Shown here: positions 41,993-44,287 of the stretch, piece after piece
How positions within the stretch are numbered: the stretch's first letter is position 1
Layout of the letters: each line of letters begins with the position of its first letter
Source: Enterobacter asburiae
GTDB lineage: Bacteria > Pseudomonadota > Gammaproteobacteria > Enterobacterales > Enterobacteriaceae
Length of the DNA stretch: 64,000 bases
Assembly (NCBI RefSeq): GCF_007035645.1
Contig: NZ_AP019632.1
Coordinates: forward strand, 2,976,001 to 3,040,000
Reading direction: 5' to 3'
Program-made: the position numbers and the translations under genes
Notes under the pieces: generated by a model
Told to the model about the DNA's origin: nothing
The model's input: the letters and a program-made list of their open reading frames with translations, nothing else
Databases searched by the model: none

Positions 41993-44287
41993 TCAGTGAG
42001 CCGCTTCCGGCTTGTGCTTCGCCGCACTCTGGAAATCGTACGTCAGTTCGTTCTTCGCCTGGTCCAGCGCCACGGTCACCTGACCGCCGTCCACCAGCGA
42101 GCCAAACAGCAGCTCGTTCGCCAGCGGTTTCTTCAGGTTGTCCTGAATCACGCGCGCCATCGGACGGGCACCCATCGCACGGGCACCCATCGCACGGTCG
42201 TAGCCTTTCTCGGCCAGCCAGTTGCGGGCCTCCTGGCTCACTTCCAGCGACACGCCTTTCTGATCCAGCTGAACCTGCAGCTCGACGATGAACTTGTCCA
42301 CAACCTGATGGATCACCTCGGTAGACAGGTGATCGAACCAGATAATGTTGTCCAGACGGTTACGGAACTCCGGCGTGAAGATCTTCTTGATCTCCTCCAT
42401 CGCATCGGTGCTGTTATCCTGGTGGATCAGGCCAATGGATTTACGCTCGGTTTCACGCACCCCGGCGTTGGTGGTCATCACCAGCACCACGTTGCGGAAG
42501 TCCGCCTTGCGCCCGTTGTTGTCGGTCAGCGTCCCGTTGTCCATCACCTGCAGCAGGATGTTGAACACGTCCGGGTGCGCTTTCTCGATTTCATCGAGCA
42601 GCAGGACCGCGTGCGGATGCTTGATCACCGCGTCGGTGAGCAGGCCGCCCTGGTCAAAGCCCACGTAGCCCGGAGGCGCACCAATCAAACGGCTGACGGT
42701 GTGACGCTCCATATACTCGGACATATCAAAGCGCAGCAGCTCAATGCCCAGCGCTTTGGAGAGCTGAACCGTCACCTCGGTTTTCCCTACGCCGGTCGGG
42801 CCAGCGAACAGGAAGGAACCGACAGGCTTGTGGTCATGCCCCAGCCCGGCGCGGGCCATCTTGATTGCTTCGGTTAAGGCCTCAATGGCTTTATCCTGAC
42901 CAAAGACCAGCATTTTCAGGCGATTGCCGAGGGTGCGCAGCGTGTCGCGGTCGCTCTGAGAAACGCTCTTCTCAGGGATACGCGCGATGCGGGCCACCAC
43001 GGATTCAATATCCGCCACGTTAACGGTTTTCTTACGCTTGCTGGCCGGCATCAGGCGCGCACGCGCCCCTGCCTCATCAATCACGTCAATAGCCTTATCC
43101 GGCAGATGACGGTCGTTGATGTATTTCACCGCCAGCTCCACCGCCGCACGTACCGCTTTCGCGGTGTAACGCACGTCGTGGTGCGCTTCATACTTCGGCT
43201 TCAGGCCGTTGATGATCTGCACCGTTTCCTCGACGGACGGCTCGGTCACGTCGATTTTCTGGAAGCGACGCGCCAGCGCACGGTCTTTCTCAAAGATGTT
43301 GCTGAACTCCTGGTAGGTCGTGGAGCCAATCACGCGGATCTTGCCGCTGGAGAGCAGCGGTTTGATCAGGTTCGCGGCATCCACCTGGCCACCGGAGGCC
43401 GCACCTGCGCCGATGATGGTGTGGATCTCATCGATAAACAGGATGCTGTTGGTGTCCTGCTCCAGCTGTTTCAACAGCGCCTTGAAGCGTTTTTCAAAAT
43501 CACCGCGGTATTTGGTGCCCGCCAGCAGCGAGCCGATATCCAGCGAGTAGATGGTGCAGTCGGCAATCACTTCCGGCACGTCGCCCTGCACGATGCGCCA
43601 GGCAAGCCCTTCGGCAATCGCGGTTTTACCCACGCCTGACTCACCCACCAGCAGCGGGTTGTTCTTGCGGCGACGGCACAGCACCTGGATCGCGCGCTCC
43701 AGCTCTTTATCGCGACCAATCAGCGGGTCGATACCGCCAACGCGAGCAAGCTGGTTAAGGTTGGTGGTGAAGTTTTCCATACGATCCTCCCCGCCTGCTT
43801 GCTCTTCATTGTTATTGACCTGATTGCTGGAATCCGATGCCTGGTTAGGCTCGTCTTTGCGCGTTCCGTGAGAAATAAAGTTAACCACGTCGAGGCGGCT
43901 GACTTCGTGTTTGCGCAGCAGGTAGGCAGCCTGTGACTCCTGCTCGCTGAAGATGGCGACTAAGACGTTTGCGCCAGTCACTTCGCTACGCCCGGAAGAC
44001 TGGACGTGGAATACCGCGCGCTGCAGCACGCGCTGGAAGCTGAGCGTCGGCTGCGTATCGCGCTCTTCTTCACTGGCTGGCAGCACCGGTGTGGTTTGTT
44101 CGATGAAGGCTTCGAGTTCCTGACGTAGCGCCACCAGATCCACGGAGCAGGCTTCCAGCGCTTCGCGGGCAGATGGGTTGCTAAGCAGTGCGAGCAGTAA
44201 ATGCTCGACGGTCATAAACTCATGTCGGTGCTCACGCGCTCTGGCGAAAGCCATGTTTAAACTGAGTTCCAGTTCTTGATTGAGCAT
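41993..44287 (-). CDS. clpA: ClpA, ATPase of the ClpAP protease (with a 5-residue duplication)
   Basis: Hexameric AAA+ unfoldase that feeds substrates, including ClpS-delivered N-degron proteins, to ClpP. In 764 residues: N domain (1-140), AAA-1 with Walker A GESGVGKTA near 215, AAA-2 with Walker A GPTGVGKTE near 495, and the ClpP-binding IGLIHQ loop near 616. An exact 15-bp tandem duplication (42166-42195) makes the sensor-2 region RAMGARAMGARPM at about residues 696-708, where E. coli has RAMGARPM. The ATG at 44285-44287 with GGGGGAGG is chosen; the frame extends five codons further without support. The E. coli protein has 758 residues. Confidence 0.98.
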   Translation of the reverse strand: MLNQELELSLNMAFARAREHRHEFMTVEHLLLALLSNPSAREALEACSVDLVALRQELEAFIEQTTPVLPASEEERDTQPTLSFQRVLQRAVFHVQSSGRSEVTGANVLVAIFSEQESQAAYLLRKHEVSRLDVVNFISHGTRKDEPNQASDSSNQVNNNEEQAGGEDRMENFTTNLNQLARVGGIDPLIGRDKELERAIQVLCRRRKNNPLLVGESGVGKTAIAEGLAWRIVQGDVPEVIADCTIYSLDIGSLLAGTKYRGDFEKRFKALLKQLEQDTNSILFIDEIHTIIGAGAASGGQVDAANLIKPLLSSGKIRVIGSTTYQEFSNIFEKDRALARRFQKIDVTEPSVEETVQIINGLKPKYEAHHDVRYTAKAVRAAVELAVKYINDRHLPDKAIDVIDEAGARARLMPASKRKKTVNVADIESVVARIARIPEKSVSQSDRDTLRTLGNRLKMLVFGQDKAIEALTEAIKMARAGLGHDHKPVGSFLFAGPTGVGKTEVTVQLSKALGIELLRFDMSEYMERHTVSRLIGAPPGYVGFDQGGLLTDAVIKHPHAVLLLDEIEKAHPDVFNILLQVMDNGTLTDNNGRKADFRNVVLVMTTNAGVRETERKSIGLIHQDNSTDAMEEIKKIFTPEFRNRLDNIIWFDHLSTEVIHQVVDKFIVELQVQLDQKGVSLEVSQEARNWLAEKGYDRAMGARAMGARPMARVIQDNLKKPLANELLFGSLVDGGQVTVALDQAKNELTYDFQSAAKHKPEAAH
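42166..42195 (-). repeat. Exact 15-bp tandem duplication within clpA
   Basis: The unit GGGCACCCATCGCAC (plus strand) occurs twice in a row, in frame, encoding an extra five residues (RAMGA repeated) at the sensor-2 GAR motif of the second AAA+ domain. No base difference between the copies. Confidence 0.97.

Follow-up and report, generated by a model that had tools for sequence, protein, structure and literature searches.

We analysed a 64,000-nucleotide stretch of Enterobacter asburiae DNA (hereafter the window) in which the minus strand carries clpA and, directly upstream of it, a reading frame that we take to be clpS, the gene of the ClpAP adaptor, going by its start and by E. coli ClpS (Table 1). 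The gene order clpS-clpA is as for ClpA, insofar as this name holds. ClpA has 764 residues if it begins at the ATG aligned with residue 1 of the E. coli protein (769 from an upstream TTG), and phmmer aligned residues 1-764 to residues 1-758 of E. coli ClpA (758 aa) at 1607.8 bits, with a five-residue insertion. The protein contains, in order, the domains Clp_N, AAA, AAA_lid_9, AAA_2 and ClpB_D2-small, all above the Pfam cut-offs (216.8 bits for AAA_2 and 88.8 bits for ClpB_D2-small). Its translation also includes GESGVGKT and GPTGVGKT, the Walker A motifs of D1 and D2, and SIGLIHQ with the IGL loop that docks ClpP. The protein is clearly an orthologue of E. coli ClpA, despite the altered sensor-2 spacing described below.

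Table 1 Features of the clpA locus and of the 15-bp duplication, in window positions
Feature	Position	Strand	Basis
clpA, encoding the AAA+ unfoldase subunit of ClpAP (764 aa, five-residue insertion included), open throughout	41993..44287	-	
15-bp unit, first copy in the coding direction	42181..42195	-	sequence, Tandem Repeats Finder
Second, identical 15-bp copy in coding order, leading into the retained GARPM	42166..42180	-	
First GAR arginine, residue 703	codon 42179-42181	-	counted from sequence
Second GAR arginine, residue 708, equivalent of E. coli R702	codon 42164-42166	-	counted from sequence
Full period-15 tract, taking in part of the imperfect unit (RPMAR) found in relatives too	42157..42197	-	
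clpS-like 106-aa frame, MGKTNDW start, directly upstream of clpA	44315..44635	-	open frame

Within clpA, the unit GGGCACCCATCGCAC occurs twice, identical, adjacent and in frame, which confirms the two exact copies that the earlier note had read at 42166-42195. Tandem Repeats Finder described the tract as having period 15, 2.7 copies and 96% matches, the top score among its 19 rows in the window, and by eye the exact period-15 tract runs from 42164 to 42197. Together the two copies give RAMGARAMGARPM, the clpA reading across the duplication is GYDRAMGARAMGARPMARV and the translated stretch around it is EKGYDRAMGARAMGARPMARVIQDN; the five extra residues of the 764-residue protein come from both 15-bp copies together. 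Searched for with a degenerate pattern, the duplicated peptide matched once in the window and in none of 100 shuffles. The second GAR is followed by PM, so that the sensor-2 GARP of the D2 small domain is retained, and the phmmer alignment sets its arginine against residue 702 of E. coli ClpA, in agreement with the sensor-2 location and R702 numbering of the earlier note. The duplication is a genuine feature of the sequence and no new kind of system.

All 61 genomes of the genus, this one included, have a ClpA match. An alignment of the site across the genus, as the earlier note had proposed, showed a single RAMGAR in all 58 ClpA proteins that are read through the site in an intact frame among the 60 other genomes (one genome per species sampled), which rules out a duplication that is ordinary or fixed in the genus. 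These relatives carry 759- and 758-residue forms of ClpA, bearing out the 764 versus 759 lengths that had been claimed. The match in G043 stops at residue 315, before the site, and in G001 (78% complete) the clpA frame is broken and the site reads as a single RAMGARPM in another frame. This G001 locus (L182) has clpA in several frames, with the sensor-2 site off the frame of the main open piece, and probably reflects low assembly quality. One protein, P0040, also has 764 residues, counted from an upstream start and without the duplication. Another, P0001 (898 aa), is a ClpA that repeats about residues 361-503 in a large direct duplication inside the chain; it lies on a single 3,049-bp contig and is possibly an assembly artefact.

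Across the family, the pattern for the duplicated form matched one of 392 genomes, namely this one, and the single-copy pattern matched 271, this genome not among them; the genomes matched by neither pattern include many very small ones, from which clpA may be missing. For E. coli, the 241 bp around the site found a match in 5374 of 5426 genomes, all at 80-90% identity. The best 15 rows span 223 bp against 238 query bases, so that they are without the extra unit, and from the ranking we infer the same for the other 5359 genomes. The E. coli collection also includes 52 genomes without a match to the clpA region and five clpA-matching places on plasmid-labelled records. In protein searches (the best 120 of 8000 and the best 120 of 2912 matches), GAR-x-x-GAR was found in 0 of 217 retrieved proteins, the searches having no positive control and not returning the window's own 764-residue protein; the best match to a 42-residue query had 88% identity over its full length, as a single-copy form would give. 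Recurrence of the duplicated form elsewhere was considered and rejected, as GAR-x-M-GARP-[ML] matched 14 stretches in an 84,980-species genome collection, which may omit near-own records; tblastn at E 1e-3 linked none of the 14 loci to ClpA, and the sites read as unrelated or low-complexity sequence. Titles and the starts of abstracts, a scope that mostly excludes subscription papers, yielded no in-frame tandem duplication in an Enterobacter clpA. In the sets examined, the duplication is private to this genome.

The single-copy relatives point to how it may have arisen. Their RAMGA and RPMAR codons form two 15-bp units with 6-11 of 15 bases identical (n=58), and an 11-base core at the 15-bp spacing has 10 identical bases in 22 of the 58, nine in 27, eight in 8 and six in one. 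An imperfect repeat of 9-10 of 11 bases is thus present in 49 of 58 relatives, as illustrated by L014 with its near-identical stretches CCGTGCGATGG and CCGTCCGATGG 15 bp apart. Microhomology at the same spacing therefore exists in the single-copy state, and slippage is possible at the RAMGA/RPMAR junction because relatives already carry the imperfect repeat. A replication slip in this lineage would have duplicated 15 bp of clpA, the nascent strand re-pairing one unit back and recopying that unit, which would give the observed unit order in frame. The exact adjacent copies have no counterpart in the relatives, as would be the case for a slipped-strand duplication.

Outside the insertion, ClpA shows no residue difference from L008 and L009, and the codons that differ from L008 comprise 27 synonymous and 0 nonsynonymous changes. 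Compared with 29 of the 58 relatives (the other 29 stretches, without stop codon, were excluded by length), the codons private to this clpA are a small number, three synonymous and none nonsynonymous. Given a nonsynonymous-to-synonymous opportunity of 2.74, about eight private nonsynonymous codons would be expected had the gene been unconstrained for the whole private branch; their absence means that either the event came late on that branch or the protein still works. Relaxed selection on clpA was rejected on the same count (29 relatives, three private codons). The seed repeat, the lack of any other residue difference from L008 and L009 and the private codons lend support to the recent slippage event proposed in the earlier note.

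We also compared the window with three relatives in aligned blocks of at least 800 bp at about 96-98% identity, the level at which the ClpA flanks align, and found few indels of at least 6 bp. Regions outside this comparison include about 36.3-41.1 kb (G018), 41.0-41.7 kb (G007) and 36.3-42.0 kb (G024). A 425-aa frame at 39638-40915 on the plus strand, with a TTG start, cysteine-rich segments and no Pfam match at E 1e-3, sits where the alignment to two of the three relatives breaks (about 36.3-42.0 kb). A scripted flag for exact tandem copies picked out the clpA insertion only, in one of the three alignments, the two remaining BLAST alignments placing it as 11 and 14 bp; this flag was too strict, passing over a 6-bp in-frame repeat expansion in a GGGGTC tract (about 62571-62590) relative to all three relatives. 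The window thus holds at least two in-frame repeat expansions, the GGGGTC one at an ordinary place, a proline/threonine-rich low-complexity linker in a 611-aa minus-strand frame (62009-63844) that by eye we take to be chitinase-like. An 8-bp repeat at 61992-62007 is identical or near-identical in G024 and G018, so that it is not new here.

These comparisons bear on whether the isolate is truly single-copy and the duplication an assembly or sequencing artefact. Its restriction to one assembly would fit such an error, as would the lack of a second independent record, the exact 764-residue protein having been returned by neither search of 5.8 billion proteins. However, the genome (4.77 Mb, with one full-length clpA match) is assembled in two contigs and rated 100% complete, the exact tract, at 34 bp, would fit within an ordinary sequencing read, and the observed sequence is the one that slippage at the existing repeat predicts. 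The few indels of at least 6 bp in the blocks aligned to the three relatives also speak against general indel noise, and a mutator was rejected on this ground as well. We consider an artefact quite unlikely.

The insertion alters a distance that is otherwise fixed. Counting from residue 688 of this ClpA, the sensor-2 arginine is 21 residues away here as against 16 in every relative aligned, comprising 58 proteins of the genus, 89 from elsewhere in the phylum, three paralogues in this genome and 80 from viral contigs. The phylum set draws on 89 of 198 other matching genomes (the 29 best and 60 picked down the list), the picks omitting some near relatives of chosen ones and sequences with internal stops, and the viral-contig set is the best 80 of at least 508 confirmed relatives, 77 of them homologues with 42-48% identity and the other three with 96%. 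The latter three (L186, L187 and L188) carry a clpA with 96% protein identity to the window's on contigs catalogued as viral, and are probably host DNA inside the viral collection. The other loci (L189-L265) lie on viral contigs, some longer than 100 kb, and encode two-domain ClpA/ClpC-like unfoldases that share the 16-residue spacing. We know of no curated ClpA definition that includes this spacing. The insertion breaks a length constant wherever we looked, and from the constancy of the spacing in relatives, changes of length here seem to be removed by selection.

To the question of how the extra residues are accommodated, the earlier note had offered a loop-out or a shift in helix register. 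The AlphaFold2 model favours the former at low local confidence and disfavours the latter: the insert loops out, the loop grows from 9 to 14 residues, both flanking helices are kept and the second GAR arginine is still two residues ahead of its helix (model pTM 0.48; control 0.49). RAMGA would then extend the loop that joins the D2 small-domain helix to the sensor-2 helix, the second GAR holding the sensor-2 position and the first being looped out. Models of this type report neither stability nor activity. One reading is that the duplication is real and recent but neutral, the five residues bulging as a surface loop on a ClpA that works normally. The retained helices and arginine position in the model agree with this, as do the identity of all other residues to two relatives and the absence of private nonsynonymous codons. 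It is set against the 16-residue spacing kept in all four sets of proteins and the block pLDDT at the site, which is 63 and 52 here versus 80 and 84 in the control, and we regard neutrality as rather unlikely.

Judging from the sequence, the duplication is probably a recent slipped-strand event that has left a weakened allele of the D2 motor, hypomorphic or null, which the cell tolerates. The duplication, its restriction to this genome, the seed repeat and the constant spacing are observed, and from them we infer the slippage event, the loop-out and the loss of activity. The extra residues would most likely weaken ATP hydrolysis by D2, and hence unfolding by ClpAP, because the loop has one length in the relatives examined and because both the ATP site and the contact to the neighbouring subunit are built by the sensor-2 helix. 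Published work on related motors is consistent with this: the sensor-2 mutant R806A of ClpB NBD2 almost abolishes ATPase activity (PMC3940203), the sensor-2 helix of Hsp104 is the main tether between adjacent subunits (PMC5130295) and ClpA has its main motor in the D2 ring (PMC9663308), which together suggest that an insertion just before this helix most likely weakens D2. The retained GARP and the intact Walker motifs and other ClpA domains mean that activity could survive, and the kept frame together with the lack of private nonsynonymous codons is compatible with both a defect of very recent origin and a protein that still works.

A weakened allele would be tolerated given the clpX- and clpP-like genes present and the dispensability of clpA, which is non-essential in E. 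coli. The genome encodes ClpP-family and ClpX zinc-domain proteins, so that ClpXP is presumably available. The recurrent mutation of clpA in laboratory evolution (PMC5933015, PMC6307192 and PMC5666152) would fit a tolerated loss of clpA here. ClpP lies next to the ClpX zinc-domain gene at 3.52 Mb, and further CLP_protease-family matches occur at G000:C1:3959114-3959626 and 1402959-1403357, in open frames of 208 and 291 aa.

Selection could instead have favoured the altered sensor-2 loop for retuning D2, for example through slower ATPase or changed coupling to ClpP or ClpS. Recurrent hits in clpA during laboratory evolution give this some footing: when E. coli and S. enterica were grown in the same medium, clpA was one of the four genes to acquire mutations in both species (PMC5933015), some E. 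coli strains gained an in-frame clpS-clpA deletion of 312 bp on passaging (PMC6307192) and clpA is among the recurrently mutated genes of passaged P. aeruginosa (PMC5666152). However, such changes may well be losses, a reconstructed clpA change in S. enterica brought no fitness gain (PMC5933015), and the duplication had no parallel occurrence in the family, E. coli, genus, phylum and viral-contig sets. We hold an adaptive change to be very unlikely. A selected slow or holding motor with separated functions, in which an enlarged-loop ClpA would assemble and bind substrate and ClpS while D2 hydrolysis is abnormal, seems comparably remote.

The value of the allele, which sits at a very constrained place, lies in putting the sensor-2 length rule to a test found in nature. 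The loop before the sensor-2 helix has one length in the relatives examined, across ClpA, ClpB, the ClpV-like paralogues and the viral-contig homologues, and an allele that departs from it can report how tightly the D2 motor depends on where sensor-2 is placed. Should the protein be inactive, this would be a common type of loss-of-function mutation whose origin by slippage is clear; should it be active, the length constraint would stand for something other than catalysis.

Compared with known proteins, E. coli ClpA (PDB 6w1z, 1r6b, 1ksf and 7uiv) is without the five residues before the sensor-2 GARP, and differs further by one residue of length in the linker near residue 160 and by scattered substitutions. 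The ClpB and the two ClpV-like paralogues of the same genome (names of our own assignment) also have the D2 small domain with GAR or GGR at sensor-2, and unlike ClpA here they retain the spacing of 16 residues. Slipped-strand mispairing gives rise to a general class of mutation, the short in-frame tandem duplications, and clpA shares with it the exact adjacent copies, the kept frame and a pre-existing short repeat at the same spacing. The site does not seem to lie in a long or phase-variable repeat tract: the 58 genus genomes, one per species, have a single copy each, with no copy-number variation seen among the relatives.
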